Source of the DNA: Taxillus chinensis
Lineage: Eukaryota; Streptophyta; Magnoliopsida; Santalales; Loranthaceae
Assembly: GCA_023512835.1 (NCBI GenBank)
Contig: CM042087.1
Location: forward strand, 6,268,550-6,332,549
Reading direction: 5' to 3'
DNA: 64,000 nucleotides
Under the pieces are notes generated by a model, which saw nothing but the letters and a program-made list of their open reading frames with translations, had not been told where the DNA came from and did not search any database. The position numbers were made by a program, and so were the translations under genes. Below, in pieces: positions 11,566-46,692 of the stretch. The first letter of the stretch is position 1, and every line of letters begins with the position of its first letter.

Positions 11566-11839
11566 TGATAACCGCATAATTTCTCATTAAATTTGTATGT
11601 AATTTATGGGCTTTAATTGAATATTTTGTTGAATTATCGCATTTTTATAATTGTTTTCCCCAATTTTAATTATTTCTTGTTTTATTTATTTTTATAGATT
11701 TAATATTAATTTTGGTGGTTTTTAATATTAAATTAATTATTCTAATTTTGATATTAATTATCTGGGCTTAACCGACTATTTTAATTTTAATCTTACTATT
11801 ATTTCTCTCTCTATATATATATTTTGGTTTGTGTTTCAC

Positions 11840-11876
<37 letters not shown>

Positions 11877-12305
11877 GTATTATTATTAGTATTAGTATTA
11901 GTATTTTGCATGCATGTATGAATTATTATTATTATTATTATGGGCTTAATTGTTTTTATTGTTTTGTGTTTTTGTCACTTTTATAGGTTGCATGTTACGT
12001 ATTAGAGATTGGAACGAAGCATTTATTATTGTGGGCCATATTGACAAAATGAAGACAAGATATTATGACTCTAGATCGGATTTGGCTATTGCAAGTAATA
12101 TTGGTTTTCATGTTGACGTGGCCGCATGGGATAATATTTGGTTTCCATATTTTTGGGCGGCTGAGTCTACATGCGTGAGAAGATATTAGGTGGAGAGAGA
12201 GAAAATCAATTAAAGATGTGGGTCATGCATAATTTTGAAGTGGCGTGGAGAGGACATGGTACATGTATATAAATTGGAAAGAGAAATTCAATGACAAGGC
12301 TGGCT
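11566..12305 (+). repeat. Athila-1a LTR, left part
   Basis: The first 740 bp of the + strand LTR, start TGATAACCGC, with (TTA)n tracts at 11846-11876 and 11925-11941. It is interrupted within TGGCT by the chromovirus. It matches 26950-27690 in inverse. Confidence 0.9.
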
Positions 12306-13424
12306 TGTTACGCCCCGGATTTCCAACCCGAGGAAACCGGTACGTGACTCCCCTTGTACCCACACGGAGGGCAAAGGGTTAGGGTGCAAACCCCGAACAT
12401 AACATTTTAAACATCCACGACACATTCAAGACAGTAAAGATCATAAAAGCAATCCACAATCCAAACCAGTCTTTATTACAACAAAATCCTCTTTTCAATC
12501 CATCCCCACTAGGGTTACATCAATTCTCATAAAAATAACATAAATGGTAGACAGTAAAGTAAATAAGGTCTTCCACCTTGGGGTCCCTCCTAATGCCTGT
12601 ATGTTCCTGAAAGAAAACACAACATAGAGGGAGGGGTGAGCAACCACAGCTCAGTAGGGATCATGTCTCCCGAACCCATTCCATGCTCCTAGCGTCTACA
12701 TGAGTGTGTACAGGTGCAGTGTAGTGACAATAAAATGTAAACAAGTTGTATTCCACATTCAAATGGCACCCACCTACCCACAGCCATACAGGCTTAGCCA
12801 TATAGGCTAACACATCCACGACCACTCAGGCTTAGCCACACGGGCTAACATATCCATGACCTCTCAGGCTTAGCCACACGGGCTAACATATCCACGGCCA
12901 TATAGGCTTAGCCACACGGACTAACATATCCACAGCCATATAGGCTTAGCCATACAAAGAACAGTTCCAGTCCCAGGCTTCCCACACCACCGGGTTCCAC
13001 AAGCACAGCATATAAGGTCACACGGGCATTAAACCAAACACGTAGCATACACACTTTCACAGGCATAATACCAAACACTTAGTTCGCACAGCCCATCAGG
13101 CATAAAATCAAACACATACTAGGCATATTCACACAGACATATCCACACAGGCATTCTATCGAACACTTAATATGCACACCATCCAACACCAGAATACACC
13201 AAAAACCGCCATTGAAGGCCAACATCCATATAGGAGATCACACCTATATGGATTACATATGTATATATAAACAGATAAACTCTACAATCTGCCCTAGAAC
13301 CTTAGGACAGAGGAGGATTTAGGAAGAACAGAACCCCTACCTTGTATGTTCTCCTGCTCCCACTTCCATGCAAGACTCCGACCACCACGCAAGATGCTCC
13401 GGCAGCCACCAGAAGCTCTCCTTC

Positions 13425-13461
<37 letters not shown>

Positions 13462-14023
13462 ACGGCTGGTGGAGCAACAAACCCTAACCCTAAAACAGAG
13501 GGGCTTCTCCTCCTTATATAGACAACACAACATCAAAACGACGTAGTTTTGATTAAGTGAATCCCAGCATCAAAACGACGTAGTTTTGATGGAACAAGCT
13601 ATGACCTTCCCACACCCATACACACCGAAATAGTCAGAATTCTAACATGGTCCTTTGGGAAAAGATGATTAGAATGACAAAACCAAGGTAACCATGCAAA
13701 AACATGCATGCACGCCAATTTGCACGTGAATTCCCTAATTCACGTGCAACTCCAAATGCACTCCAAATGCGCTCAAACTTCACCCCTAGCCTCCTTGCAT
13801 CATGTAGAAGACAACCACACTTGCACGTGAAATGGACCCATTTCACGTGCACCTTACATACACGTCCGTTTGGCCTGAAACTTCTGTGGTAGATAAAGGA
13901 CATCATTCTAAGCATCTTTCCTTTTGCACGTGAAGTCATTGGAGTCCATTCACTAGGTCAAAATCTAGAAAAACTCTACTCAGAAGGCAAAACTGTGACT
14001 AACTCAAGGTACGGGTCCTTACA
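12306..14023 (-). repeat. Chromovirus 3' LTR
   Basis: 1718 bp; the minus strand begins TGTAAGGACCCG and ends GGGGCGTAACA. It contains about five tandem units of roughly 37 bp (CTTAGCCACACGGGCTAACAT core, 12785-12960), a CT tract (13431-13457), a TATA box (13512-13521 in inverse) and two copies of a 22-bp palindrome (13532-13553, 13569-13590). Confidence 0.93.
13509..13910 (-). promoter_or_regulatory. LTR promoter module: TATA box, two ACGT palindromes, CACGTG sites
   Basis: On the minus strand, in order: a block AATGATGTCC..TACCACAGAA (about 13875-13905), paired CACGTG sites (for example 13831-13855 and 13721-13747), two palindromes ATCAAAACTACGTCGTTTTG, and TCTATATAAGG. Initiation would fall near 13480. 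The same ordered set occurs in the Athila-2 LTR (55611-55990). ACGT cores are typical targets of plant bZIP factors; binding here is inferred. An equivalent copy lies in the other LTR at about 20735-21130. Confidence 0.65.
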
Positions 14024-14036
14024 TCCTCTCCCCCTT
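14024..14036 (-). other. Chromovirus polypurine tract
   Basis: The minus strand reads AAGGGGGAGAGGA next to the LTR start TGTAAGGACC. Confidence 0.85.
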
Positions 14037-14338
14037 AAGACTTTTCGTCCTCGAAAGGAAATGACATACGAGGAAAACAAACACAAGCTACCCATTTGCC
14101 ACACGGCGAGCCACAACACCCAAATGGGTCATACACCGCGCACAACACATAACAGCACATAACAAGGTACCACCATAATCCATAACCACAATAATGCATA
14201 TAACACATGTCCGCATGTCACGAATACACATCACAAATAAGAACACGTCTTTAAAAGACAATACAAATACCCCAAATCGTACACAACTAATACAAGAAAA
14301 CACATCACTATCCCTTGGCCAACAACCACCTCCCACGC

Positions 14339-14758
14339 TTAAGATTGTTCGTCCTCGAACAATTTTGGGTGCTGCTCACGCATCATGGACTCACGTTCCC
14401 ATGTCTCCTCCTCAATGCCACGGTGCTGCCACAGCACACGAACCAAAGGAAGAGCACGACCACGCAAAAGCTTCTCTCGCCGATCTAGGATACGGATAGG
14501 GGCCTCAACAACGGACAGGTCATCCTCAATGTCTAAGGTCCCCCAATCGATCACATGGGTGGGGTCAGGGTGATACTTCCGCAACTGGGACACGTGGAAG
14601 ACATTGTGCACTCGACTCAGCCGCGGTGGTAACGCTAAGCGGTAGGCTACAGGCCCCACACGATCCAGAATCTCAAAAGGACCAATAAACCGCGGAGATA
14701 GCTTGGAACCTCGCCCAAACCGTCGATGTCCATGACGTGGGGAAACACGAAGAAACAC
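14339..14758 (-). CDS. Integrase C-terminal region with chromodomain
   Basis: A 139-codon open segment. It begins in the integrase C-terminal region with the GPF.ILDRVGPVAYRLALP motif typical of chromovirus integrases (residues about 25-45) and SRVHNVFHVSQLRKY. Residues about 84-135 form a chromodomain-like fold: an ILDRREK start, a VRVLWQHR strand and the EETWERE helix. In the family this module guides integration to marked heterochromatin. The three aromatic cage positions are only partly met, as in other Tekay-type chromodomains. It is frameshifted relative to the integrase core upstream. Confidence 0.85.
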   Translation of the reverse strand: MFLRVSPRHGHRRFGRGSKLSPRFIGPFEILDRVGPVAYRLALPPRLSRVHNVFHVSQLRKYHPDPTHVIDWGTLDIEDDLSVVEAPIRILDRREKLLRGRALPLVRVLWQHRGIEEETWERESMMREQHPKLFEDEQS

Positions 14759-15658
14759 ATGATCACCAACGAGAAAACTCCAAAGGTCGCGCCGCTGATC
14801 CGCATAAGATTTCGCCGACTTTGAGCCGATAACAAACGCCGACGAATCAACTTAACCTTCTCGGTGGCCTCTTGAACCAACTGCGGTCCCAAGAGAGCTG
14901 TCTCCCCCACCTTGGTCCAACACAAAGGTGATCGACACGGCCGCCCATACAACGCCTCAAAAGGAGCCATCCCAATGGATGCCTGATAACTGTTATTGTA
15001 GGCAAACTCCACCAAAGGAAGGTGAGTTGCCCACGAACCCCCAAAATCTAACACACAGGCCCGTAACATGTCCTCCAAAGTCCGATTCGTCCTCTCTGTC
15101 GACCGTCGGTCTCAGGGTGAAAGGCTGTACTCAAGTGAAGCTTGGTCCCCATAGCCTCCTGCAAACTTGCCCAAAAATGGGAAGTGAACCTCGAATCCCG
15201 GTCGAGACAACCGATGATGGTACTCCATGCGGTCTCACAATCTCGTTCATGTACAGTGACTCAAGGTCCCAATGGAGTCCCGCTCGCGAACAGCCAGGAA
15301 ATGGGCCGACTTTGTGAGTCGATCCACAATCACCCAAATCATATCTTTCCTCCCTGTGGTGGGTGGAAGACCGATCACAAAATCCATCGCTATGTGGTCC
15401 CACTTCCACTCCGCTATGGGCAATGGTCGTAACATACCCGCCGGCCGCCGATTCTCGGCCTTCACCCTGCCGACACGTGAGGCACCGCGAAACAAAGGCA
15501 GCCACATTGCGTTTCATCCCAGGCCACCAAAAATGTCCCCGAAGCGCATGGTACATCTTCATACCCCCTGGATGCACAAGAACTCTAGACCGGTGAAACT
15601 CCCTCATCACCTCATCCCTGAGGGAAGAAGCCACTACCAACTGCCCCTGAAATGACAA
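14759..15658 (-). pseudogene. Chromovirus integrase core (several frameshifts)
   Basis: The zinc-binding HHCC is seen at the start (His-His in LVHPGGMKMYHALRGH, Cys-Cys in CLTCRQG), then DFVIGLPPTTG with the first catalytic Asp and VIVDRLTKSAHF. The second acidic region and the Glu region are degenerate or frameshifted (near 15190 and 15100). The reading recovers at [12 protein letters not shown] and FAYNNSYQASIGMAPFEALYG (15078-14900). Confidence 0.85.
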
Positions 15659-16234
15659 CTCATGCTCAGGACCCTCGTCCGATCCTCGGATAGCTCACCG
15701 GCCTCAATACGGGCACGGAGAACCTCACACTCAACGTCACCCACTGTTCCTCCCGGACGCGCTGGTACAACTCAAGCACAACCACCAAAGGACTCAGGAC
15801 TGTCCCACCATCACGAACAACAAGCCGCAACCGCAACATCGCCAACTGCTCCATCGCCTTCCACTCTCTCACGGCCACCTCGGCTTTCCCTTTTTGCGCT
15901 CAACGCGTCAGCCACAATATTACCCTTGCCCGGGGTATAGGCAAGAGTAAAGTCAAAGGTCCGCAAATACTCCACCCATCTCCTCTCGCCTCAAATTCAA
16001 GTCCATCTGGGTAAAGATGTACCGAAGGCTCTTGTGATCCGAGAACACCACAAACTTCTCCCCCAAGAGGTAATGCTGCCAACTCTTCAAGGCGAAGATG
16101 ACGCCCGCTAACTCAAGGTCATCGGTAGGATAATTCTGCTCATGAGGCTTCACTGCCTTGACCCATAAGCCACCACACCGTGCTCCCGCATAAGCACACA
16201 CCCCAAACCAACCTTGGACGCATCACAAGATACC
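15659..16234 (-). pseudogene. Chromovirus RNase H region
   Basis: Minus-strand coding continues from RT: NYPTDDLELAGVIFALK, YLLGEKFVVFSDHKSL and IFTQMDLNLR (16150-15960) are the standard gypsy RNase H blocks. Frame changes occur near 15960 and 16200. Confidence 0.8.
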
Positions 16235-17386
16235 TCATATGGAATATCCTCCCGAGGTAACCTCAACACCAGGTGCAGTGGTCAAACGGGTTTTGAGAGT
16301 CTCAAACGCTTGCCGGCACTTGTCCGTCCACTCAAATTTTACTCCTTTCCTAGTCAACGCCGTCATAGGAGCCGCCAAACGGGAGAACCCCTCTATAAAA
16401 CGGCGATAATACCCCGCCAAGCCAAGAAAGCTACGGATCTCAAAAACGTTGGTTGGCCTCGCCCACGATGCCACGGCCTCAATCTTGGCTGGGTCCACCC
16501 TAACTCCCTCAGTGACACCACGTGGCCAAGAAAGTGAACCTCCTGCGGCCCAAAACTCACACTTGCTAAACTTAGCAAACAGCTGCTGGTCCCTCAAGGT
16601 TTGCAACACTGTTGCCAGGTGTTCCACATGCTCCCTCTCGGTCTTGGAATATACCAAGATATCGTCTATAAACACCACCACGAATGAGTCTAAGTATGGG
16701 GCAAAGACTTGGTTCATCAAATGCATGAACACCGCTGGCACATTAGTGAGCCCGAAAGGCATCACTACCCACTCATAATGCCCATACCTGCACCGAAAAG
16801 CTGTCTTAGGGATGTCCTCCTCCCTAACCCTGAGCTGGTGATACCCCGACCGTAAATCTATCTTGGAAAACCACTGGGCCCCACTCAATTGGTCAAACAG
16901 GTCATCTATCCGAGGCAACAGGTACTTGTTCTTCACAGTCACTGAATTCAGCTTTCTGTAGTCGATGCAGAGACGAAGTGTGCCATCAGCCTTCTTAGCA
17001 AAGAGCACCGAAGCACCCCAAGGTGAGGTACTCGGTCTGATATACCCTTGGCCCACCAACTCCTCGATTTGCCTCTGCAGCTCCCTCAGCTCGGCTGGCC
17101 CCATATGATACGCTACTTGGGAAATCGGACCCGTTCCCGGCACCAACTCAATGGTGAACTCCACACTCCTCTGCGGAGGTAAACTCCTCAACTGGTCAGG
17201 GAAGACATCCTGAAATTGGTCCACAACAGCGGGCCACACCCTCTTTTCCACCTTACCCACCTCAACAAAGGTCAGGGCTGCCAACCTGTGGGTAATGGCA
17301 CCCCACTGGTCCAACACCAGCCCGGCCCGACTCGCCTCACAGTCCCACTCCCCCTGTAGGGTGCAAGAGGTCCCTGCAGGTGTCAC
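16235..17386 (-). CDS. Chromovirus reverse transcriptase
   Basis: An open segment of 383 codons. Blocks in order: the [11 protein letters not shown] pre-RT region, [39 protein letters not shown], the catalytic [11 protein letters not shown], and [15 protein letters not shown]. It copies the element RNA. The last codons run out of frame into RNase H. A second frame (16578-16393) carries the '[10 protein letters not shown]' piece, so there is a local frameshift near 16560. Confidence 0.9.
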
Positions 17387-17422
17387 GAAGGATACATGCC
17401 GCCGGTAATAGTCTATCTTGGC

Positions 17423-17830
17423 TTAGAAGGCCATAAGCCAATCCATACCCAAGATCAGGTCAAACGTCCTCAAAGGCATTACATGCAAGTCAAAACTCAG
17501 CTCCACCTCTCCTAGGGTTAACACACAGTCACGACACACACGCCGTACCTCAATCATGCCTCCCACCGGAGACTCCACAACTAGGGGCCTCGCGGCCTCC
17601 ACACAAGCTAACCGCAAGCCGTCTATTACAAGCTCAAGAACAAATGAACATGATGCACCCGTATCGAAAAGAACATAAGCTAATGTACGGGAGATCAAAA
17701 GGGTACCTCTAACCACCGATGATCCTGCTCCACCCTCAGCTGGTGGGGGTGGTAGCTCAGCCTCCTCCTGGTATGTCACCTCCAGCGCAAACACCCTTCC
17801 TTGGCCCGTGCCACTGGTCGGCTCACTCAC
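17423..17830 (-). CDS. Chromovirus aspartic protease
   Basis: 135 codons. The active site is VLFDTGASCSF and the flap/second block is LILGMDWL; both are classic gypsy protease motifs. It cleaves the Gag-Pol polyprotein. It overlaps the gag end (17830/17827) and is separated from RT by a frame change at about 17400. Confidence 0.9.
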   Translation of the reverse strand: MSEPTSGTGQGRVFALEVTYQEEAELPPPPAEGGAGSSVVRGTLLISRTLAYVLFDTGASCSFVLELVIDGLRLACVEAARPLVVESPVGGMIEVRRVCRDCVLTLGEVELSFDLHVMPLRTFDLILGMDWLMAF

Positions 17831-19240
17831 TGGACGCTTCCCGCTAAGGTTGCCTCCGGCCTCGGTCTCCGTCGCTGCTCCGGCCTCCCCCGGGGTCGGG
17901 TCCGACTCGATCCTGCCCGACTAGCCTGCCACCGACGAGCTGGTCTCTCCGCTGGTGTATGGAAACCGGCGTCACTCCTCATGCCGGATGCCATGCCTCC
18001 AACTCCCTTGTTGCTACTCCGGCAAACCCGGCTCAAATGGCCTTCTCGTCCACGCCTATTGCATCGCCAGTTCTTCTTGGGACACTCCCTCTTGAAGTGG
18101 CCTTGCTCCCCACAAGAATGACAACCGCCGGGGAGTCCTCCTCGTTGGACCTTCCTGTCTACTACCGCCAAAGCTAGACCTCCCGGGGGGCACCGATGGT
18201 TGTCCTCGGCCGCGAAAGGAACCGCTATCCCTTTCCTCGGTCTTGGGCCGCTTAGACCCGGAATCACGCTCCAACCCACCCTGCAACGGGCGACCCTGAT
18301 GGGTCCGCGCTCCCATCATCCAGCTCCCTCTCGCCTATACGGGCCATCTCCACAACCTCAGGATAGGTCCTCAAGCGTAGAATTGCCACCCTCTCGCCTA
18401 AGGGCTGGCCTGAGACCCAAGGTGAACTTGTGAGCCTTCAGGTCCTCCCTTGCCACGTCTCAGGAGCAAACCTACTCAAGCTCCGAACTCCCGCTCATAC
18501 TCAGGTACCGTCCTGGATCCCCCGCTTCAGCCGCCGAATTCTTCCCTCTTCCGCCATCTCACCGATTCCGGGAAGAACTCCTCATGGAAGAGTTGCAAGA
18601 ACTCCTCCCAAAGCATGAGTTGCACCGCACGGCTCCCCACGACACTCGTCCACCACTCCAAAGCATCCCCCTCCAGTGGCGAGTGGCGGTCGCACCTTAT
18701 CCTCTTCCCGGGGCAGGAGAAAGGAGAACACATGCTCGATCCGCCTCAACCACTGTTCGCCTACCACGGGTTCACCTTCCCCCCTTGAATCGCGGAGGTT
18801 GTTCCTTTTGGAACCGTGTCACCACGTCATCCTCTGCACGAGTCGGTACACCACCCGGCGAACTCTCACGCTCACGTGGCGGCTCTCCTCGGTGGTGGTG
18901 GTGGTACCACCTGTCTGTGCTGCCATCTCACGGCGCACCTCCTCCCGAACCTCCCGCCGAGTCCCTCCCGTAGCTCTCGTACCTCCAAGCCGGATGCCTT
19001 CTCGTAGCTGTGCCAGCAACAATGCATGCCCTCCAACGGACGGTCCCGCACCCGGACCCTCATGGGCAGATGACTCATCGACCATCGCCCGGACGCATGT
19101 GTCACTCTCCTCGGCGGCATTCTTACTACACGAAGTAAGAAGCACAATGTCAAAACAATTTTATAATCTATCGCGTCACTACCTCTACCCCACCGATCAA
19201 TTCCACTATCACATAACATTGCACACATACATCGTATCAA
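17827..19240 (-). pseudogene. Chromovirus gag with CCHC zinc knuckle (frameshifted)
   Basis: A complete knuckle CHSCGEQGHFKREC is seen near 18110-18070, followed by a second decayed one (CNRRGREGHLSRVC, one Cys replaced). Upstream segments in different frames (18733-18527, 19145-18819) carry capsid-like coding (WWTSV.G, EFLQLFHEEFFPESVR). The likely start is near 19120-19150. Gag packages element RNA. Confidence 0.75.
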
Positions 19241-19510
19241 TCACATTGCACGATTAAGTACACATTGCCAAACAAATCAGAGTTGCACATTTCACTTAAT
19301 CATGTGATCTTATCCACAGTTCAAAGACACATTCACAACAAATGCAACTAGTGCCCTAATGCCAATGCATGCAAATCCTACCACAAGACTGGACTACCCT
19401 AAGTACACCTTGGAGGCTCAAAGAGGACCATGTTGATCAGGCATGTCCCTCCAGGCTCCTCCAAAGGACTTAGGATAACTAGGTCCACCCACTACCCTAG
19501 GCCAACTAGA

Positions 19511-19525
19511 CCATGCTCGATACCA
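19511..19525 (-). other. Chromovirus primer-binding site
   Basis: The minus strand TGGTATCGAGCATGG lies 3 bp from the LTR. The first seven bases match the 3' end complement of initiator tRNA-Met; the rest is degenerate. Confidence 0.8.
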
Positions 19526-19528
19526 TAT

Positions 19529-21239
19529 TGTCATGCCCCGGATTTCCAACCCGAGGAAACCGGTACGTGACTCCCTTGTACCCACACGGAGGGCAAAGGG
19601 TTAGGGTGCAAACCCCGAACATAACATTTTAAACATCCACGACACATTCAAGACAAGTAAAGATCATAAAAGCAATCCACAATCCAAACTAGTCTTTATT
19701 ACAACAAAATCCTATTTTCAATCCATCCCCACCTGGGGTTACATCAATTCTCATAAAAATAACATAAATGGTAGACAAGTAAAGTAAATAAGGTCTTCCA
19801 CCTTGGGGTCCCTCCTAACGCCTTGTATGTTCCTGAAAGAAAACACAACATAGAGGGAGGGGTGAGCAACCACGACTCAGTAGGGATCATGTCTCCCCAA
19901 CCCATCCCATGCTCCTAGCGTCTACATGAGTGTGTAGAGGTGCAGTGTAGTGATAATAAAATGTAAACAAGTTGTATTCCACATTCAAATGGCACCCACC
20001 TATCCACAGCCATACAGGCTTAGCCATATAGGCTAACACATCCACAGCCACTCAGGCTTAGCCACACGGGCTAACATATCCACAAACCTCTCAGGCTTAG
20101 CCACACGGGCTAACATATCCACGGCCATATAGGCTTAGCCACACGGACTAACATATCCACGGCCATATAGGCTTAGCCATACAGCGAACAGTCCAATCCC
20201 AGGCTTCCACACCCACCGGGTTCCACAAGCACAAGATACAAGGTCACACGGGCATTAAACCAAACACGTAGCATACAGACTTTCACAGGCATAATACCAA
20301 ACACTTAGTTCGCACAGCCCATCAGGCATAAAATCAAACACATACTAGGCATATTCACACAGACATATCCACACAGGCATTCTATCGAACACTTAATATG
20401 CACACCATCCAACACCAGAATACACCAAAAACCGCCATTGAAGCCAACATCCATATAGGAGATCACACCTATATGGATTACATATGTATATATAAACGAG
20501 ATAAACTCTACAATCTACCCTAGAACCTTAGGACAGAGGAGGATTTAGGAAGAACAGAACCCCTACCTTGTATGTTCTCCTGCTCCCACTTCCATGCAAG
20601 ACTCCGACCACCACGCAAGATACTCCGTGACCACCGAAGCTCTCCTTCCCTTCTCTCTCTCTCTCCCTCTCTCTCTCTCTCTCTGTGACGGCTGGTGGAG
20701 CAACAAACCCTAACCCTAAAACAGAGGGGCTTCTCCTCCTTATATAGACAACACAACATCAAAACGACGTAGTTTTGATTAAGTGAATCCCAAGCATCAA
20801 AACGACGTAGTTTTGATGGAACAAGCTATGACCTTCCCACACCCATACACACCGAAATAGTCACAATTCCAACATGGTCCTTTGGGAAAAGATGATTAGA
20901 ATGACAAAACCATGGTAACCATGCAAAAACATGCATGCACGCCAATTTGCATGTGAATTCCCCAATTCACGTGCAACTCCAAATGCGCTCAAACTTCACC
21001 CCTAGCCTCCTTGCATCATGTAGAAGACAACCACACTTGCACGTGAAATGGACCCATTTCACGTGCACCTCACATACACGTCCGTTTGGCCTGAAACTTC
21101 TGTGGTAGATAGAGGACATCATTCTAAGCATCTTTCCTTTTGCACATGAAGTCATTGGAGTCCATTCACTAGGTCAAAATCTAGAAAAACTCTACTCAGA
21201 AGGCAAAACTGTGACTAACTCAAGGTACGGGTCCTTACA
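19529..21239 (-). repeat. Chromovirus 5' LTR
   Basis: 1711 bp, the partner of 12306-14023, with the same tandem units, palindromes (20758-20779, 20796-20817) and TATA box. Differences are scattered substitutions plus many 1-base indels. Right TSD TGGCT at 21240-21244. Confidence 0.93.
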
Positions 21240-21244
21240 TGGCT

Positions 21245-21275
21245 TGGGGACCACGTTAAAGAAATTGCATGCAGA

Positions 21276-21310
<35 letters not shown>

Positions 21311-22347
21311 AACGGGAATTATCTCCCTCGCGCACCAAAATCCCACGCCGCAGCACTCCTTCGTCCATCACGTCGCCAGCGCAGCCACACCTCCATCGTC
21401 CCATCCTCTCACTATTCCTCCATCACGTCCAATGCAGCATATACGCTGCAACACCCACATCTTGCGGAAGAGACCCAGTCGACGCTGCCCCCAGCATTCA
21501 ATCGCCCAGCGACGCCACAGTCCATTCACGCCCAACCTTTGCGCAACCGTTTTGCGGAGCAGCAGAAATTGGAGAGAGATAACGCAAGAGGCATTGAAGA
21601 TTCAGATCGAGTTCAAGATCGAGTGTTTAATTGTTTGCAGCCTATTTTTCCTAATTCTGTTCTAATTTTGTTGTTTTAATTTTTCCGAACAGATTTGTGA
21701 TTTTTCAACCCATGGAGGAGTAAGTATTTTGTAATCGGTTTAGCACAACACTTTGGATGCTTATTTTGAATCCATATTTTAATATTTAATTTGATATTTT
21801 ATGTGCTATGAATTAATTCTCCAAACTCTTTGATTTGTTGAATTAATATCTCGGTTGAGTGTTGATTTAGCAATTCATTGTGTGTTATTATTCTATCTGA
21901 GTGGGAAGATTTGTTTCGTAGGGAACGGGCTGTCTTTCGAGAATTGATTCATAATTATTCTGGTTAGAATAAATTCATAATTTGATTGTATTCATGGTGT
22001 TTTGATGCATTTGAATTATGGGGCCATAATTTATCTAATTAATCTTTTGGGATAGTGGTAAATAGCATTCAGGTGTGAAGTTAAACCGGTTACATATTTA
22101 ATTAATTGATTTTCTCAGTTATTGATTTTCTTAGTTAAAATTCTTTGCTTTAATTAGTTTTCATTAAATCAAAAAACCCCCCCCAATTTGATATTTATTC
22201 TTTTTCAGTAGTTTTTATTAAACAGGTAATTAAATAGATTGAATTGAATTTTATAAGTCCTCCGGTAGAGAACGATCTAGGTTAAGCCACTAGCTATACT
22301 TAGTTTAAATTTTATTTAGATTGCGTGTGCGATAAACGCCCTTTTCA
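21245..22347 (+). repeat. Athila-1a LTR, right part
   Basis: Continues the LTR after the chromovirus. A (TA)n run at 21277-21308 marks the likely promoter. It ends CCCTTTTCA. The two parts add up to 1843 bp, against 1848 bp for the inverse copy at 25843-27690. Confidence 0.9.
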
Positions 22348-22367: not shown

Positions 22368-22379
22368 AGGCATTAAATT

Positions 22380-35279: not shown

Positions 35280-35315
35280 TTGATCTGAGGGATGGTTTCG
35301 AGTCCATCTGTAATT

Positions 35316-36332: not shown

Positions 36333-36657
36333 TAGGGTATATCTCGCACCGGCCTAGTGACCGAACAGATATAGGACCACATAGGTCCATATGAAGAAGT
36401 TGTAGAGGAGCAGTTATTGAATTAACTGATTTGCTCTTAAAGCTATGTTTGGTCTGTTTGCCCAATTGGCATTCTCGATAGAGAGAGTCTCCGGAGAACT
36501 TGAGTTTAGGTAGACCAGTGACAAGATCAAGTGACGCTAATTTAGACAAAGTCTTAAATTTTAAATGTGCGCATCGCTTGTGCCATAGCCAACTGTCTTC
36601 ATCTGATGCTTTAGTGAGGAAGCATACAGGGTCAGAAGAATTATTTCTTAAGACCAC
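36319..36657 (-). CDS. Copia-2 GAG-pre-integrase zinc domain
   Basis: WLWHKRCAHLKFKTLSKLAS gives the two His. The Cys pair is altered: YRECQLGKQ has Tyr where Copia-1 has Cys (CRDCQLCKQ). Zinc binding would be lost in this copy. It ends in a frameshift near 36330. Confidence 0.88.
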   Translation of the reverse strand: MVLRNNSSDPVCFLTKASDEDSWLWHKRCAHLKFKTLSKLASLDLVTGLPKLKFSGDSLYRECQLGKQTKHSFKSKSVNSITAPLQLLHMDLCGPISVRSLGRCEIYPSGYR

Positions 36658-36716
36658 TGAGTAAATGTCCCCATCTCTTGATCCGGATAACTTAACTTCT
36701 CCGGATAAGTTTTCTC

Positions 36717-37007
36717 TTACTGTACACAGGTGTTGGACAAAAAGGAAACAGTAAATCCTCTGTCACATAAATTACTGACACTTAGCAAATTATGCTTTAT
36801 ACCTTCGACTAGTGCAACTTTAGTGATTGATACACATCCGTTAGTTAAGGTGCCATACCCGACAGTCTTACCTTTGCTGTTGTCGCCATATGAAACGGAT
36901 GGACCTTGTTTATCATTAACTTCTACAAGCAGCGTCTGATCACCCGTCATATGTCCGAAGCATCCACTATCAAGGATCCACTTGCTTTTATTGATCTTTA
37001 ACTTCAA
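36717..37007 (-). CDS. Copia-2 protease
   Basis: WILDSGCFGHMTGD is the copia protease active site (Asp-Ser-Gly). KTVGYGTL and HNLLSVSNLCDRGFTVSF follow. The open segment is 96 codons; the stop and a frame change separate it from the integrase zinc domain. Confidence 0.88.
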   Translation of the reverse strand: MKLKINKSKWILDSGCFGHMTGDQTLLVEVNDKQGPSVSYGDNSKGKTVGYGTLTNGCVSITKVALVEGIKHNLLSVSNLCDRGFTVSFLSNTCVQ

Positions 37008-37009
37008 GT

Positions 37010-38565
37010 GATCCGGAAATGCATTCCAGAGATGCTCCTGAAAGACAACAGTTTACACTTTTGGTGCCCAAACTTGTTTCAGGCGGTTAGAGAGAGCAGC
37101 AGTATTGTCAACATTTACGGATTTGATTTTGCTAGGACTTTTAGCTCTCCAAGTTGACTTTAGCTTGTTAGTTTCAGCTACCTCTTTTATTTGGGTTTTC
37201 TTAGGAGAGATACTCCTTTGAGGTTTAGATTTTGTTTTGCTCGAAGAACCCTTTTTGTTTAACTGATCTTTATTGATATGAAATTGATTACAAAGCCAGT
37301 TATCAGATAAACTCCAACATTCATAGTGATAATGACCTATTTCCCTACAGATGGAACAGACACTATAATGTGAAGTACAAACAGGGGATACGGGTCTCTT
37401 AGATTTTACGACTTTCTACTGTTCCCTGTGGCCTAATCCATTGTGTTTGGGTGACGCGCTCTTGGCCCTAGATGCATCAGCCTTTGCCTTGTCTTTCTTT
37501 TTGGGTTCTACGCTTTTGGCTTTAATCGTAGCGGCCTTCCCCTTCATCTTTAGTTACGGGTGCTACCGCTTCGGGAAGTGCAGAATGACCTCGACTCCAC
37601 AATCATAAACTATGGTGCCACCTGAAATGAAACCATCCAACGGTTTAGATGTACTAACAGGATATAAGTTGGTTAGTTTAGGAGTAAAATCCGGAGGACA
37701 CTCGGTAGCTTGAGCTATGGATGTTGATGACTCGGAGCCTAGGCCAGGTTTGACTCGGATGTCGTCAGGATCAGTCCTAAAGGTAAAGGCTATTTCCCCG
37801 GATTTTAGCCACTTACGATTTATTTCCTTTTCCTGTTCCAGTTCATTTTCGAGTCTTTTTACTATAACCTTTAGGCCTGAGAGATTGGTATTTAACAAAT
37901 GATTTTCAGCTCTTAGATCGTGATACCAAGCTTCTTTTCCTCTGAAGTCAGTGATGTCCTTTTCGAGTCTATTAATAGTAAATTCAAGACGTTTATTCGA
38001 CTTTCCATATCTTTGTACATTTGAGTAATTATTAGTCTCTCATTCTTTTCATGATCATATGCGGTAGTAAGAGATTCTAATTTACTCGGGAGCTCGAAGA
38101 TAGAAGGTACCTCAGGTATTTGCCATGAGGCGGACGTTCGGCTTAGTGGTTGGCTCATCATCCGAGGATTCCTCCTCTTCTTCCGAGCCACTCATGTATT
38201 TTGTCACGAGCGCCTTCCTCTTGTTTTTGCTGTTGTCTGAGGTGGAGCGGCGAGGAGTTACCTTGTCACTTTTCTCGGCCACTTTTGATTTGGACCTGCA
38301 TTCCTTGGCCTAGTGACCGGTTTTCCCACAGTTGAAGCATTCCTGGGAACTGGACGCGGTCGCTCCTTCCTTTGGAAAGATGATGATGAGCGTCTCCTGA
38401 ACCCTTTTCTGCTTTCCATAGGAATCGCTCAAAGGATTTGATAAGAAGTGCTATCTCCTCCTCCTCGTCGAATCGAATTCTCAAACACGTCCGTATCATC
38501 ATTCCTCGGTATGTTTAGACATTCGTAGCTTTGAGAGCTACCCCCTTTTCTTTCCGAGCTATTTT
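37010..38565 (-). pseudogene. Copia-2 gag, C-terminal half (zinc knuckle, coiled coil)
   Basis: The zinc knuckle CFNCGKTGH..AKEC is at about 38299-38340, broken by a TAG at 38310-38312. After it come a Lys/Ser-rich stretch (38250-38130) and coiled-coil segments (38191-37913 and 37898-37563, for example VKRLENELEQEKEINRKWL). A coiled coil after the knuckle is typical of Sirevirus Gag. Frames change at about 37905, 38200 and 38500. Confidence 0.75.
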
Positions 38566-38566
38566 C

Positions 38567-39344
38567 TCATCCCGGTCGAGTACTTAAACCTGACTTCGTG
38601 AGTCCGCAGCTCTCCATATAGTTCTTCAAGGGGAACATACCGCGCTTCTTGTCGATTGTATCCGGGAGTTGTTTGGAGTAGTAGTGATCCGACGAGGAGC
38701 GAAAGAACTTGTCATTGATCCGGGATTGAGAATAGTGCTCATTGACGGTCTTCAGCTCAAGAATGAGCTTGCCGAATCTCCGATAGATGCTTTCGAGTGA
38801 TTCGCCCGGTTTATGATTGAAACTCTCAAAGTTCCGTCCGAGAGTACGGATCACGTTTGTATCCGGGACCGACTCCCCTCATAGAGGATTGTCGGTTTGT
38901 CCCAAACGACTTTTGCGGTCGTGCGGCCCTGGACGTCCGTGAAAGCCTCGGAATCCAAAGACGATGTAACATAAGCCGAGCCTTTTCACTAGCGCACTGC
39001 CAGGCTCTTTCATCATTGGTAAGTTCAAGATCCGTCTTTGGCCTCCTAACTCCATGTTCTCCGATAGTCATCGGAATTGGAATCTCCTGATGAAGACATG
39101 GCCACATAAGATGATCATGGCATACCATAAACATCTTCATGCGAGCTTTCCACTGGGAGAAAAGCTTAGGTGTGAATTTGGGCGGTTTCGTCAGGGTAAA
39201 GCCAGAACTCCGTGGTTGAGCAGTGGAGGCAGCAGCAGGTTGAGGTGGGTCGACGTTTTCACTGCTGCTTCGATTCGGGATGGGCTCTTGTGCACCTCCA
39301 GAGTTAAGGTGAGTGTTGAATAGCATACTGCTTTCTTCGGCCAT
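38567..39344 (-). pseudogene. Copia-2 gag, N-terminal half (UBN2-type)
   Basis: The likely start is the ATG at 39342-39344 (MAEESSMLFNTHLNSGG). PPKFTPKLFSQWKARMKMFM is the copia gag entry motif. KPGESLESIYRRFGKLILELK (38810-38750) belongs to the UBN2 gag domain. Frameshifts lie near 38850 and 38960. Confidence 0.8.
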
Positions 39345-39390
39345 TTCTAAGATTGAAAGAGTTGGATCTCTACTTAGAACAAATAGAACT

Positions 39391-39403
39391 TGCTCTGATA
39401 CCA
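39391..39403 (-). other. Copia-2 primer-binding site
   Basis: The minus strand TGGTATCAGAGCA, matching initiator tRNA-Met, lies 2 bp from the LTR. Confidence 0.92.
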
Positions 39404-39405
39404 CT

Positions 39406-40602
39406 TGATGGTCCCTTGGAGCCTAGAGGGGGGTGAATAGGCTCTTATCGAAACTCTTTTCTTTCTCTTAAGACACAAACACTTATCTAGTTAAGTGATA
39501 GAATCACTGCGGAAGATAACCAGATAGTGGAAGTATTTTGTTTTATTATCACAAGATAAATATAACAAAATAGAAGCAAGACTCTCTTACACTCTGTTTA
39601 CAAATGAACTCACACACTAGCCAAATTCTATCTCCCAAAATTAAAGCCGCTAGTGCATACACAGGGTTAATCTTTGCTTGCAAATGCACATGCGCGCTCC
39701 TCTACACAAATGTACAAGTATGAATATTTATACAAAACATTCCTACGAGACAGCCTTGGAACTTGTAGTTCCGGAATGCGTTCAGCAGCTAACTATCCCT
39801 CGGTAATCTCTCTGCCTTGACTGCTGCGGATTGTGGAGCTCAAGATCTTGGGTTTGAAGAGTATAAGTGTCTTTGTGAGTTCTCAAATATAATTAAGGTT
39901 GTGTCCACATATCCAGATGATCCACGTGTAAGATTTTTCAGGTTCTCAATAAATTTGTCTTACATCGGGACGCCACGAGCTGATAACTTTAAATGCGGTT
40001 GAGTTGAAGCAGTATCTTCTTGGTCCGGTGTAATTTTCCTTACTCCGTAGCTAATGAGGCTCGGAACCTTACTCCATGTCAGTGATTGCTTACTCCGTAT
40101 CTATTTGGTACTGGAATCCTTAGTCCGTGTCAGCGCTTCCTTACTCCGTATGTAAGTTCCTTACTCCGTATGTAAGTTCCTTACTCCGTATAAGTGAGTG
40201 GCCCAGATTCCTTACTCCACATCTAATTTCCTTACTCCATATAAGTGAGTGGCCCGGATTCCTTACTCCGCATCTATGGAAGACTCGGATGCCTTACTCC
40301 GTGTCTTCTTTTACTTCGTGCGACCTTGTAAACCAAGACTCTTACTTAGCGTCAATTTGACTTAGTCCGCACGAATGTTCCTTGTTCCGTATGTATTGGT
40401 GACTTAGTTATTTACCAAGTGTATGACGACACTCACTCTTGTCCAGATCAGGATTATGTATCCTGTCCTTAGCTTTGCTCTCACGAGTGTATCTCCGGAT
40501 TAATAACACATCTTCTGCAACAATCAAATAAACACAAAAGATCTCAGATCAAATTACATAAGGCTTTATCAGCATTATCCAAATTTTGGGTTTGATCCAA
40601 CA
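39406..40602 (-). repeat. Copia-2 5' LTR
   Basis: 1197 bp; the minus strand runs TGTTGGATC...GGGACCATCA. It contains the TTACTCCGTAT minisatellite (40035-40280). Confidence 0.9.
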
Positions 40603-40838
40603 ATAAGTAAACAAATAAACTAAGGAAAACACAATAATAATAATAATAATAACAAACTAAGGAAAAACACACACAAAAAAAAAATATTTTTAATTAAACT
40701 AAATTAAGTGTTCCCTCCCCCACACTTAAATGTTGCATTGTCCTCAATGTAACCCAAAAATAGAAGCTATGGACGGAATGCAATTCTAAAAGTGAACAAT
40801 GAACAATAAATGAGAAGGAAAGAAACAACCTGATGGGC
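40603..40838 (-). other. Athila-1b 3' non-coding region, proximal part
   Basis: Follows the integrase stop. It contains (AAT)n at 40633-40651 and a second PPT-like tract, minus strand GTGTGGGGGAGGG at about 40713-40725. Confidence 0.7.
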
Positions 40839-42302
40839 TCAAAGAATGACAGGGTCGTACAGTTGGATAGAATCCAATGCAGGTAGACGATAACCCCCAT
40901 AGAAGTGCTTGAGCCGATGTCCGCTGACCGTGAAGTTATGTCCTGATTCTTCCTGAATGATCTCCACTGCACCATATGGATAGACACGAACTACAGTATA
41001 GGGGCCAGTCCATCTCGTCCTCAGCTTACCAGGCATAAGCTTCAATCTCGAAGTATAAAGAAGAACACGCTCACCTTCTTCGAACTCCCTCTTGTGAATT
41101 ATCTTGTCATGGGCAGCCTTGGACTTCTCCTTGTAGAGCCTTGCATTATCATAAGAATCCAAACTAAGCTCCTCAAGCTCCTGAAGTTGAAGTTTCCTGT
41201 GCTCCCCTGCTTGGGCTAGGTCCAGATTACAAGCTTTAACCGCCCAGTATGCTCTATGCTCCACCTCCACAGGAAGATGACAAGACTTCCCATAAACTAA
41301 TCGAAATGGGGACATGCCAATGGGAGTCTTGTATGCTGTTCGATAGGCCCAAAGTGCATCATCAAGGCGTTAGCTCCAATCCTTCCTATTGGGCTGAACA
41401 GTCTTCTCCAAGATTTGCTTCAACTCCCGATTGGACACCTCTGCTTGGCCATTGGTTTGGGGATGGTATGGTGTCGATGTCTTGTGTGTCACCCCATACT
41501 TCTGAAGTAGTGCTCGAAAGTGCCTATTGCAAAAGTGAGTCCCTTGATCGCTAATGATAGCTTTAGGAATGCCAAACCTACAAAAGATGTTAGTTTTCAC
41601 AAAATCCACAACAACTTTTGAATCGTTAGTCCTCGTGGCTTTCGCCTCCACCCACTTACTCACATAATCCACAGCAACCAAAATATACAAATAACCAAAA
41701 GAACTAGGAAAAGGACCCATGAAATCAATACCCCAAACATCTAAAAGTTCACAAAATATCATAGGCTGTTGAGGCATCTCATGCTTCCTGGATATATTAC
41801 CAGTATGTTGGCAACGATCACATGCTTTACAAAACTCATAAGCATCATGAAACAAAGTAGGCCAATACATACCAGAGTCCAATACCTTCCTAGCTGTGCG
41901 CTGTGAGCCAAAGTGTCCTCCACAAGCAAGTGTGTGGCAGAATTTCAAAATAGATGGGATCTCATGGCTGGGGACACATCGTCGTATAATCTGATCACTG
42001 CCAATCCGCCAAAGATAGGGATCGTCCCAAAAATAGTGCCTCGCTTCACTCTTCAACTTCGCTACTTGGTGCTTCCTATAATGATCAGGAATTTTAGAAG
42101 CCACCAAGTAGTTCACCAAATCAGCATACCATGGGAGGGTAGAAGAGATTGCATATAGGTGCTCATCTGGAAAGGTGTCTCTCAACTCCAAGGAAGTGTT
42201 GTCCTTTGATAGGTGGGGAAGTCGGCTCATGTGATCGGCAACTAGATTTTCAGACCCCTTCTTGTCTTTGATCTCTATGTCGAACTCTTGAAGAAGCAAC
42301 AT
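40839..42302 (-). pseudogene. Athila-1b integrase
   Basis: Two long open pieces (42302-41370, 310 codons; 41315-40839) separated by a TAA at 41370-41372 that probably replaced CAA. RNase H tail: [27 protein letters not shown]. Zinc site: His in [11 protein letters not shown], Cys-Cys in CKACDRC. Catalytic residues: [29 protein letters not shown]. The C-terminal part has [24 protein letters not shown], typical of Athila. Only one stop breaks about 480 codons. Confidence 0.92.
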
Positions 42303-42314
42303 CCATCGAATAAG

Positions 42315-43100
42315 TCATGGCTTGGCATCTGGCTTCTTCAATAGGTACCTCAGGGCCGCATGATCAGAAAAGACAACAACTTTCGATCCTAAGAGATAGG
42401 AATGAAATTTGTCTAAGGCAAAGATAACTGCAAGGAACTCCTTCTCGGTAGTGGTGTAGTGGCACTGAGCTGCATCTAAGGTCCTCGAGGCATAGGCAAT
42501 GACATGTGGAACTCCATCCACTCTCTGTGAAAGAATAGCTCCCATAACAAAATTGGAAGCATCACACATAAGCTCAAATGGTTGGTCCCACTTTGGTGGT
42601 TGAATGATCGGCGGGGAGGTCATCTGCTTCTTCAACTCATCAAAAGCTAACCTGCAAGAATCATCAAAAACAAAAGATTTCTCTTTCTGCAACAATTGCG
42701 ACAATGGGTGTGCAATCTTGCTGAAGTCCCTGATGAAGCGCCTGTAAAAACCTGCATGTCCTAGGAAAGAACGAACATCTCGAACACAAGTAGGATAGGG
42801 TAAAGATGTAATAAGATCAATTTTAGATTTATCTACCTCTATACCATGCTTGGAAATTACATGTCCTAGAACTATGCCTTTTTTAATCATAAAATGACAT
42901 TTTTCAAAATTAAGCACTAGGTTTTTATCAATGCAACGACGCAAAACATTACCTAGGCTAGAGAGACATTCATCAAATGAGGAGCCATAAACAGTAAAAT
43001 CATCCATAAATACTTCCATGCAATTCTCAAGAAAATCAGAAAATATACTCATCATGCATCTTTGGAAAGTACCAGGAGCATTACAAAGACCGAATGGCAT
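42315..43100 (-). CDS. Athila-1b reverse transcriptase (C-terminal) and RNase H
   Basis: 261 open codons: [20 protein letters not shown], the catalytic FMDDFTVYG, GFYRRFIRDFSKIAHPL, then RNase H blocks MCDASNFVMGAILSQ, TTTEKEFLAVIFALDKF and VVFSDHAALRYLL. It ends in TGA (42315-42317) where CGA (Arg) is expected. It joins the upstream segment through one TAG. Confidence 0.92.
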   Translation of the reverse strand: MPFGLCNAPGTFQRCMMSIFSDFLENCMEVFMDDFTVYGSSFDECLSSLGNVLRRCIDKNLVLNFEKCHFMIKKGIVLGHVISKHGIEVDKSKIDLITSLPYPTCVRDVRSFLGHAGFYRRFIRDFSKIAHPLSQLLQKEKSFVFDDSCRLAFDELKKQMTSPPIIQPPKWDQPFELMCDASNFVMGAILSQRVDGVPHVIAYASRTLDAAQCHYTTTEKEFLAVIFALDKFHSYLLGSKVVVFSDHAALRYLLKKPDAKP

Positions 43101-43172
43101 CCTTCTATATGCAAAAGTACCAAATGGGCAAGTGAATGTAGTCTTCTCTTGGTCCTCTGGAGCAATGGGAAC

Positions 43173-44321
43173 CTAAAAATAGCCAGAAAAACCATCCAAG
43201 AAGCAATAATGTGTCCTACCTGCCAGTCTCTCTAACATTTGGTCAATGAAGGGGAGTGGGAAGTGGTCCTTGCGAGTGACACCATTAAGTCTCCTATAAT
43301 CAATGCATACTCGCCAGCTATTCTGGACTCGCATAGGAACCAATTCCTCCCTCTCATTTTTCACCACAGTGAACCCAGTCTTTTTGGGTACCACTTGGAC
43401 AGGACTAACCCACTGAGAATCAGAGATAGGATAAATAATGCCAGTTGCAAATAATTTTTTTACCTCTTTCTTTACAACTTCTAACAAAGTGGGGTTTAGC
43501 CTCCTTTGGGGCTGCCTCACTGGTTTAGTACTATCTTCTAAGAAAATCCTATGCATGCAAGTGGATGGGCTAAGTCCAGGAATATCAGCTAATGTCCAAC
43601 CTATTGCCTTAATATTGTCCCTCAAGAGAGCCAACAGTTTGGTCTCTTGGTCTGGTAGGAGATTACTAGCAATGATGACAGGCAATCTATCTCCATTCAT
43701 CAAATATGCATATTTAAAATTATTAGGCAAAGCTTTCAACTCAAGTGTAGGTGGGTGTTGTATTGAAGGCATCATGCTAGGTGTAGACATTTGTGCACAA
43801 GAAGAAATAGAGTGAACATGTGCAACATCATCAAAAAACAAAGCATTCAATCCATTAACATTATCCACCTCATAATCAAAATCATTCACATCACTGAAAT
43901 CAAGGTCAGAATCAATCTCATATGGTGGTTCAGTGTGTGAGAGGAATAAGACACTATGTTCACTAGAGGGATGCTTCATGGAGTCTAAAATATTAAATTT
44001 AATAATTTCATCACCAAACTCCATAGAAAGCGTACCTTGGTAAACATCAATAATGGTTTTGGCAGTTTTGAGGAATGGCCTGCCAAGAATGATAGGGGCA
44101 TGTAAGTTCGCCAAGTCCTCTTCCATGTTGAGAACATAGAAGTCAGTGGGAAAGATGGCATCTCTCACTCTAACGAGAACATCCTCAAGAACGCCTACTG
44201 GTCCAACTGTGGATCTATTAGCCAATTGGACTACCACCTGTGTTGGCTTAAGCTCCCCAATGTGAAGAGAGGAGTAAACAGAATAGGGCATGACATTGAT
44301 AGAGGCGCCCAAGTCACACAA
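43173..44321 (-). CDS. Athila-1b protease and reverse transcriptase N-terminal part
   Basis: 382 open codons. The protease site is [11 protein letters not shown], the Athila form of D-T/S-G, followed by ILGRPFLKTA. RT begins at RQPQRRLNPTLLEVVKKEVKK, with SDSQWVSPVQVVPKK, WRVCIDYRRLNGVTRKDHFP and FLDGFSGYF. It stops at TAG (43173-43175), probably from CAG (Gln). The first Met is internal; the native frame enters from gag upstream, where a TGA lies near 44352. Confidence 0.92.
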   Translation of the reverse strand: MCDLGASINVMPYSVYSSLHIGELKPTQVVVQLANRSTVGPVGVLEDVLVRVRDAIFPTDFYVLNMEEDLANLHAPIILGRPFLKTAKTIIDVYQGTLSMEFGDEIIKFNILDSMKHPSSEHSVLFLSHTEPPYEIDSDLDFSDVNDFDYEVDNVNGLNALFFDDVAHVHSISSCAQMSTPSMMPSIQHPPTLELKALPNNFKYAYLMNGDRLPVIIASNLLPDQETKLLALLRDNIKAIGWTLADIPGLSPSTCMHRIFLEDSTKPVRQPQRRLNPTLLEVVKKEVKKLFATGIIYPISDSQWVSPVQVVPKKTGFTVVKNEREELVPMRVQNSWRVCIDYRRLNGVTRKDHFPLPFIDQMLERLAGRTHYCFLDGFSGYF

Positions 44322-46167
44322 AGCATCAAAAAAGTGAAGTGTCCCAATGGTTCATGGAATAGTGAAGGTGCTAGGGTCTTCACACTTCGGGGGCATGGAA
44401 GGAGAATGAGTGCTGAGACTATTCTCCCAAGGTTGACCCTTTCAACTCCCTTTAGGCTTCTTCTTCTGTTAATACATAGTTCCTTCAAGAATTTAGCAAA
44501 TCGAGGAATTTGCTTGATGGCCTCCAAGAGTGGAATGTTGATCTCCACCCTTTTAAATATATCCAGAACCTCCTGCTGAATTGCCTCATCTGTCATCTTC
44601 TTGTTTTGAATAGCCTTATATGGGAATGGAAGAGGTCTAGAGGTGGTTTCCTTCTCCTTCTTCAGCTCTTTTTCCTTGATCTCTGGTTCCTCAGTGGTTG
44701 AGGTAGGGGGTGGCCCCTTGGCTAGTGGTGCAAATGCTGGTGGAGTAGATGGAACCAGTGGATCTCTAGTTTGCTTGCCACTCCTCAAAGTGATAGAACT
44801 GATATTCCCCTTAGGATTGGGAGTAGTCTGAGAGGGAAGTGTGTTCTGCTGATGACTAGTGATCTCATGTATAGGAGTGGCCATCTGACTTATTTGCATC
44901 TTGAGTTCCTTCAACTCATTCTGTTGGTTGAGCACAACCTGCTGAAGGAGATTAAAGTTATCTAGTTCTGCCTTTTGTTAAGGATGAGCTTGCTGTTGAC
45001 CATTCGATGTTGGCCCCTCAGGCCTCTTTTGAAAATTCTGAGGATATGGAGGTCTCTGGGGTTGCCTTGTCCCATAGCGAAGATTGGGATGATCTCTCCA
45101 CCCTCGAGTATATGTCTGTGAGAATGGATCATATTTCTACTGAGGGAGACGTTGTTGCTGATGCTGCTCATATGGGCGACCTAGAAAGATGCCATTGCAC
45201 TCTTCTGTCTCCTGGAGTTGTGGACATGCATCAGTAGGGTGATCAGTGGCAGTGCAAATTCCACAAACTTTGCAGGACTAGCGAGGGCTGGTAAGGCTAA
45301 GGCCATCTGCCTTATCATAGTAGAGATCTCATCAAGTTTGTGCGCCTCAAGGCTAGGCTGTGTGTTGGGGCTCACATGGTGGACTCCTCGCTGTGTAGGC
45401 AATGCTCGATCTCCAAATTGCTGCATATTCTGTGCCATCTTGTCAATGAGAGCTCTTGCATCCACTGGTGTTTTATCAACTAGGGCTCCTCCTGCAGCTG
45501 CATCCACCATGCTCCTCTCCATAGATGTAAGACCCTCATAGAAGTACTGGATGAGGAGTTGGTCGCTAATTTGGTGATGTGGACAACTAGCAACCAACTT
45601 CTTGAAGTGCTCCCAATACTCGTACATCGTCTCGCTATGTCCCTATTTAATGCCTGAGATCTCCTTCCGAATCGTTGTGGTCCTCGATGTTGGGAAGAAT
45701 CGATTCAAGAACAATTTCTTCAACTCGTTCCAACATGTGACATCTTTTGGTTGCAAGTAATACAACCAATCTTTTGCAGCTCCATCAAGTGAGAATGGGA
45801 AAGTTCTCAACTTGATTTAATCTTCTGGGACATTGCGGGGCTTCATGGTTGAGCAAACCACATTGAACTCCTTAAGATGCTTGTGTGGGTCTTCTCCAGA
45901 TAGCCCATGAAACTTGGGAAGAAGATGTATAAGACCAGATCTAAGCTCGAAGTCAGTCTCCAAGGCTGGGTAGGCAATACATGTCGGTTGATAGTTGATG
46001 TCTGGTGCTGCCAACTCTCGGATGGTGCGGTTGTACTCTCCGTTGTGCCCAGCCATTGTTGGTGAGGGGCTTTCTTCCTTTACTTGAGTGTGTCGACGAC
46101 GAGTCCTCAAGTTCCACTTAACCTCTGGATCCAAATCTAGTAGTTCCCCTGAAGTGGATCGTGTCAT
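44231..46167 (-). pseudogene. Athila-1b gag and gag-protease linker
   Basis: Start ATG 46165-46167 (MTRSTSGELLDLDPEV), the same as the + copy. Segment 46167-45820 has MAGHNGEYNRTIREL, DINYQPTC and LLPKFHGLSGEDPHKHLKEF. A TAA at 45817-45819 replaces a CAA that is still present in the + copy (25621). Segment 45627-45181 has YEYWEHFKKL and MVDAAAGGALVDKT. The region 45171-44962 is Gln-rich and frameshifted. Segment 44935-44231 holds ITLRSGKQ, a Pro-rich stretch and VEINIPLLEAIKQIPRFAKF, a standard Athila linker. Confidence 0.88.
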
Positions 46168-46511
46168 AAAACTGCAAAAAAAAAAAAAATTAAGAGGAAG
46201 AGAAGAGAAAATAAAATAAAAGAAAAAGAAAAACCTACAAAAAATAAAACTATGAGAAAAAATGGAAATAAAACAAAACAGGAAACTCATTAGAAAAGAA
46301 AACCTGCAAAAAAGGAAACTTTAGAAAAATGGAAACTTTTTTTTTGATTTTTTTTAATAAAATAAATAAATAAAATAAAATAAAATAAAAAGGAAACCTG
46401 CAAAAACAAAAACAAGAAACTACCAGGTAAGTCCGAACAAAATACTAAATAAATTTAAAACAAGATAAATAATAAAACAAACAAGAAAATAAATTGAATC
46501 AAATTTAATGC

Positions 46512-46530
46512 CTCCCTGGCAATGGCGCCA
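46512..46530 (-). other. Athila-1b primer-binding site
   Basis: The minus strand TGGCGCCATTGCCAGGGAG, separated from the LTR by ATT (plus sense, 46531-46533). This 3-base gap is the one seen at the inversion junction. Confidence 0.88.
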
Positions 46531-46533
46531 ATT

Positions 46534-46692
46534 TGAAAAGGGCGTTTGTCGCACAAGCACTCCAAATAAAATTTAAACTAAGTATAGCTAGTGGCTTAAC
46601 CTAGATCGTTCTCTACCGGAGGACTTATAAAATTCAATTCAATCTATTTAATTACCTGTTTAATAAAAACTAATGAAAAAGAATAAATATCA
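46534..46692 (-). repeat. Athila-1b 5' LTR fragment (159 bp of U5/R side)
   Basis: Matches 25843-26001 base for base in length (159 bp). It ends at an internal TATCA instead of the true terminal TATCA and is followed directly by TSD CCCTT. Confidence 0.9.

Follow-up and report, generated by a model that had tools for sequence, protein, structure and literature searches.

How can two long terminal repeat (LTR) retrotransposons of one family come to lie in inverted orientation within a single target-site duplication (TSD)? The question is raised by a 35-kb insert at positions 11566–46692 of a 64,000-nucleotide stretch of the Taxillus chinensis genome (assembly GCA_023512835.1, contig CM042087.1, positions 6,268,550 to 6,332,549 of the forward strand), the whole of which is called the window and whose own numbering is used throughout. 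We find that the insert is made up of part of a plus-strand element (copy A) joined to a minus-strand element of the same family (copy B), each interrupted by other elements. The reading we hold to be reasonably probable is that two sibling Ty3/gypsy cDNAs of one family became fused, one inverted relative to the other, and then integrated as one unit; the inverted pair is probably a rare copying accident and not a new kind of element. The anatomy was worked out by self-comparison of the window and by reading of the element ends, and domains were assigned using Pfam.

The insert is bordered by the pentanucleotide CCCTT, read from the insert ends as the left TSD at 11561–11565 and again as the right TSD at 46693–46697. 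The DNA surrounding it belongs to a decayed copia element on the minus strand, the left part of which contains a GAG-pre-integrase domain (Pfam). When one CCCTT is retained, the host flanks rejoin as NVSVVQGLKHNLLSISQLCDKGYEVLFTKH on the minus strand and can be read in a single minus-strand frame, LLSISQLCDKGYEVLFTKH (LLSISQLCDKG/YEVLFTKH, with the join at KG/Y). The frame shifts soon past the rejoined stretch, which we take as decay of the host element. An earlier note on this DNA had placed CCCTT at both ends where the host copia codons rejoin, and this is borne out by the ends and by the reading frame. Because of the TSD and the rejoining of the host frame, the whole 35 kb that CCCTT borders on either side behaves as one insertion that was enlarged later by nested elements.

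Copy A occupies the left part of the insert and consists of a plus-strand 5′ LTR (11566–22347), a primer-binding site (PBS), a leader, and the first part of gag, which stops at position 25840. The left outer end is a plus-strand LTR, as previously noted, and it starts at 11566 with TGATAACC, a true unique 3′ (U3) start. This LTR is split into a first part (11566–12305), whose last five bases are the TSD of the intruder, and a second part (21240–22347), which ends in CTTTTCA; between them lies a gypsy element (12306–21239, reverse transcriptase on the minus strand) with TSD TGGCT that inserted later than copy A. A decayed PBS (22351–22368) and the leader with the gag start (22369–23008) follow, all on the plus strand. 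A PBS is typically 18 nt long, and this length was applied to both copies. Within the gag region of copy A, a solo-LTR-like insert of 2564 bp (23009–25572; TG...CA, TSD AGTTC) contains a 27-bp tandem repeat array at 23947–24375 with ~ 15.6 copies. Gag then continues from 25573 to 25840 on the plus strand with a Retrotrans_gag domain and is truncated at the right. The leader and gag portion amounts to ~ 0.9 kb, and the remainder of copy A past this point in gag, together with its 3′ LTR, is absent from the insert.

From 25843 to 46692, sequence of the same family runs in minus orientation with another element nested within it. Copy B begins at its left with a complete 3′ LTR of 1848 bp (25843–27690), followed by the polypurine tract (PPT) GTGTGGGGGAATT (27691–27703) and a 3′ internal region (27704–28485, with an approximate right limit placed by self-comparison and end reading). 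A copia-type element with a direct LTR pair is nested next to this region, also on the minus strand (28486–40604, limits approximate). Beyond it lie the integrase, RNase H/reverse transcriptase, protease-like region, gag, and leader of copy B (40605–46512, Pfam), the PBS, which begins with TGGCGCCATTGCC (46513–46530), and a remnant of the 5′ LTR. The domain order on the minus strand is gag, protease, reverse transcriptase, RNase H, and integrase, with the protease below the curated cut-off. By this order and by its LTR (TGATAACT...CTTTTCA, thus TG...CA), PBS, and PPT, copy B is a Ty3/gypsy LTR retrotransposon. From the PBS type and the style of the element, its lineage may be Athila-like.

At its right outer end the locus differs from its first description as a U3-to-U3 insert. 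A minus-strand LTR of the same family does stand there, in agreement with the strand and family given in the earlier note, but it does not present a U3 end: only the last 159 bp (46534–46692) of the 1848-bp LTR are present, beginning with TGATATTT at LTR position 1690, and the complete minus-strand LTR lies inside the insert. The true PPT/U3 boundary of copy B is GTGTGGGGGAATT/TGATAACT, and in both LTRs that run through the right-end site the sequence is CCCCCCAATT/TGATATTT. The right-end AATT/TGATA is identical to the element's own PPT/U3 boundary at 9 of 9 bases (AATTTGATA). This motif is found at two internal LTR positions, compared with an average of 0.09 over 2000 LTRs simulated from a first-order Markov model. 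The LTR has 32 TGA sites, five of which are TGATA (the LTR start and four internal ones), and AATT precedes TGATA at 2 of the 31 internal TGA sites. The second internal AATTTGATA site, at LTR position 1283 (21788 on the plus strand and 26400 on the minus strand), is a further candidate cryptic end.

Other explanations for position 1690 were considered. A simple pattern finds TATA-like matches at LTR positions 246, 721, and 790 only, with none near 1690, and the right end lies 969 bp downstream of the match at 721 and 900 bp downstream of that at 790; since these matches lie so far upstream, position 1690 is unlikely to represent an RNA 5′ end. A hairpin at the cryptic site would be weak (−2.5 kcal/mol, z −1.52), with 15 of 200 shuffled sequences equally good.

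The inner junction, CAATT at 25838–25842, can be read base by base. The plus strand matches copy B gag through CTTCAA and the copy B LTR/PBS boundary from CAATTTGAAAAGGG; CAA is common to both copies, whereas the TT at 25841–25842, which stands between copy A gag and the TG of the minus-strand LTR, comes from the U5–PBS spacer of copy B only. In both copies the LTR ends in CTTTTCA and is followed by AAT and then by the PBS, so that the U5 end of copy B at the junction retains 2–5 bases past CA and the overlap at the join is 1–3 bases. The window includes a second gypsy element that apparently shares this layout, TCTGTCA/AAT/TGGCGCCGTTGCC (CA/AAT/TGGCGCC), its own LTR not being delimited, and this supports the placing of the LTR end in copies A and B. 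HIV-1 integrase trims two nucleotides beyond CA before joining, as described in the excerpted text of PMC5618025, and we extrapolate such trimming to plant gypsy elements. Because integrase removes bases past CA, yet they are retained here, the junction resembles a cDNA U5 end that had not been processed before it was joined at an internal position. Read in this way, it speaks against an ordinary insertion of copy B into copy A, for which a processed CA end would be expected; what follows the LTR end is instead TT from the copy B spacer. On its far side copy B borders host DNA, where the second copy of any TSD made within copy A would be lacking. Of the two routes suggested in the earlier note, end joining of two cDNAs would fit the inner junction, as would template switching where U5 meets the PBS, while one-ended auto-integration as the sole account of this join is disfavoured by the bases kept past CA.

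The single TSD and the in-frame rejoining of the host support integration as one unit. The idea that a rearranged product of two cDNAs was inserted as a single unit stands as the best-supported reading, although not with the two U3 ends originally attributed to it. We infer the order of the steps, the priming, and the use of a cryptic end by integrase as follows. One partner in the fusion would be a copy A cDNA ending ~ 0.9 kb into the internal region. The untrimmed U5 end of copy B would have been end-joined to this cDNA or reached by a template switch of reverse transcriptase. The other end of copy B would lie within its 5′ LTR, at the AATT/TGATATTT site that repeats the PPT/U3 boundary, and could have been made by plus-strand priming at this site or by LTR copying that halted nearby. 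Integrase would then pair the true U3 end of copy A with the cryptic end of copy B and generate the 5-bp CCCTT duplication. The same product would arise if the ends of two cDNAs, still separate, had been inserted by integrase at a single target and their free inner ends then sealed by end joining. Integration as one unit accounts for the TSD, the TT, and the AATT/TGATA match, and it presupposes that an inverted cDNA pair was fused and that integrase can accept TGATATTT as an end. We suggest, tentatively, that a plant gypsy integrase can insert such a pair with a normal TSD by using an authentic U3 end together with a site inside the LTR that resembles the PPT/U3 boundary.

Several observations weigh against the fusion of two cDNAs. 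That integrase acted on an internal LTR site is something we infer, and the boundary match is only suggestive, since AATTTGATA occurs twice within an AT-rich LTR that has four internal TGATA sites. The 3-base TCA overlap at the right end, correctly reported in the earlier note, would also fit a microhomology deletion. The 3′ end of the family's LTR was read from copies A and B and from the layout of the second gypsy element, not from an ordinary insertion. Finally, the two LTR tails of copy B are nominally more alike (1.9% divergence) than are the LTRs of copies A and B (~ 4%), a difference that points weakly to separate histories.

Alignment with MAFFT gave 73/1807 substitutions between the LTRs of copies A and B (74/1782 with trimmed ends) and 3/159 between the two tails of copy B (3/164 by BLAST), and the two divergences do not differ significantly (p = 0.20–0.28). 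The comparison of LTR divergence proposed earlier as a check thus allows, but does not prove, a single age for the two copies (74/1782 against 3/159, p = 0.20), the lower figure for the copy B tails tending weakly the other way. In the alignment of the LTR tails, 157 of 164 columns are identical, with copy A alone differing at four, the 3′ LTR of copy B at two, and its 5′ LTR at one, a pattern that does not discriminate. For the LTR pair of the nested gypsy element we counted 57/1697 or 58/1704 substitutions (MAFFT). BLAST gave 37/1730 mismatches for this pair and 71/1830 for copies A and B. Dating against the nested gypsy pair depends on the alignment, with p = 0.25–0.33 from the MAFFT counts and p = 0.002 from the BLAST counts; judged by its LTRs, the nested gypsy element does not predate copies A and B whichever alignment is used. 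The LTR pair of the nested copia-type element differs at 17/627 positions (MAFFT) or 17/647 (BLAST).

The weights that we give to the competing readings are judgements. Copy A might have inserted with TSD CCCTT and received copy B later, in inverted orientation, before a deletion at TCA trimmed both; this deletion would have taken the part of the copy B LTR that lies upstream of position 1690, what remained of copy A, and the copy A 3′ LTR except for its last three bases. Nesting is a common process, and this locus shows or implies four insertions by other elements; TCA is common to both sides of the right breakpoint, and the divergence between copies A and B is compatible with separate events. 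However, the deletion must stop at the exact 3′ terminus of copy A, for which simple arithmetic gives a chance of ~ 4 × 10−4 if breakpoints are uniform over 10 kb. Nor does this sequence of events explain the inner TT, which is not in the nearest relative of copy A and matches an unprocessed cDNA end, or give any reason for AATT/TGATA at the right end, a context found at only 2 of 31 internal TGA sites. We regard it as rather unlikely.

A join at the exact 3′ end of copy A would still be required if a double-strand break in the gag of an already integrated copy A had captured a loose copy B cDNA, the far end of which was sealed to the copy A 3′ terminus while the remainder of copy A was lost. 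Such a repair event would account for the unprocessed U5 end and for the short overlaps at both joins, but with this requirement we think it improbable. An assembly chimera of two family members has to be weighed because same-family inverted repeats are difficult to assemble and the case is known from the assembly alone. Copies A and B differ at ~ 4% of LTR sites, which argues against a fold-back read, and the junction falls at a cDNA end while the outer ends have one TSD in common; a chimera is very improbable.

The fused pair can be compared with several known arrangements. Template-switching complexes (Sabot and Schulman 2007, PMC1950507) likewise comprise two same-family units within one 5-bp TSD and were interpreted as a single integration of abnormal cDNA; in ~ 7 Mb of Triticeae sequence, two same-orientation complexes were reported alongside 400 LTR-retrotransposon insertions, and two were reported among 4704 rice and maize candidates (4072 in its Methods). 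One 5-bp TSD surrounds the whole insert here too, with CCCTT on both sides and a host frame that rejoins. Those complexes are head-to-tail, however, with a third LTR shared by two complete cores of the same orientation and with two similar outer LTRs. In the present insert the units face opposite ways, copy A is truncated and nearly coreless, the inner LTR is that of copy B, and the outer LTRs, instead of being highly similar, are a complete one at the left and an inverted 159-bp end at the right that starts from an internal LTR site. We have filed the insert as a variant of single-TSD complex insertions and not as a member of the template-switching class, because the TSD and the same-family units agree whereas orientation, completeness, and outer ends do not.

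Plant tandem LTR-retrotransposon arrays (PMC11899658; Cassandra, PMC7215508) are also multi-unit, some with one TSD, but as far as the excerpted texts describe them they are tandem with internal LTRs in common, unlike the inverted pair. A nested LTR retrotransposon with partial deletion would resemble the insert in having an inverted inner element within an outer one and short-overlap deletions; it differs in that the inner U5 end is unprocessed here and that the deletion would need the outer element's exact end. In 2-LTR circles, as portrayed in the excerpt of PMC5618025, linear cDNA ends are joined and may retain bases that integrase trims. These are circular, whereas here the end would have been attached within a second cDNA before the product integrated. 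Among the titles and abstract openings listed from an open-licence library, we recognised no inverted LTR-retrotransposon complex with a single TSD, and one may be reported elsewhere.

Single-TSD complex insertions document events of reverse transcription and integration that precede insertion, not later recombination. If a plant gypsy integrase can insert a fused inverted pair, the LTR would contain a cryptic end that integration can use, and insertions of inverted pairs with a single TSD would be a recurrent by-product of retrotransposition, searchable genome-wide by the signature of inverted LTRs, one TSD, and an unprocessed inner end. An inverted case whose internal end is att-like would suggest a plant integrase tolerant of such ends, and a feedback from the joining of loose cDNA ends to integration. 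Inverted repeats of one family would also arise directly in this way.

Parts of pol in the second gypsy element (56887–62468, plus strand) are ~ 71–73% identical to copy B at the DNA level, and this element has an exact PBS, TGGCGCCGTTGCC, of the same type as that of copies A and B. The PBSs of copies A and B (22351–22370 and 46511–46530) deviate from this exact motif, copy A more so, and most of the differences resemble C-to-T or G-to-A decay. A PBS pattern with up to three mismatches gave 26 matches in the window compared with 27.3 expected, which is chance, and only the two exact matches were used. For the copy B integrase, no confirmed relative was found in viral contigs (two pattern matches) or in prokaryote genome contigs (six pattern matches). 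A 15-base pattern matched 86 stretches of viral contigs, and the analysis draws on none of them. The nested copia-type element contains a 715-aa open frame (29908–32055, minus strand) between pol and LTR, for which Pfam gave no match at E 0.001. A direct repeat, 1–661 and 50071–50708, with 90% identity over 662 aligned bases and shorter repeats inside, may be an LTR pair or a duplicated flank around the whole region.

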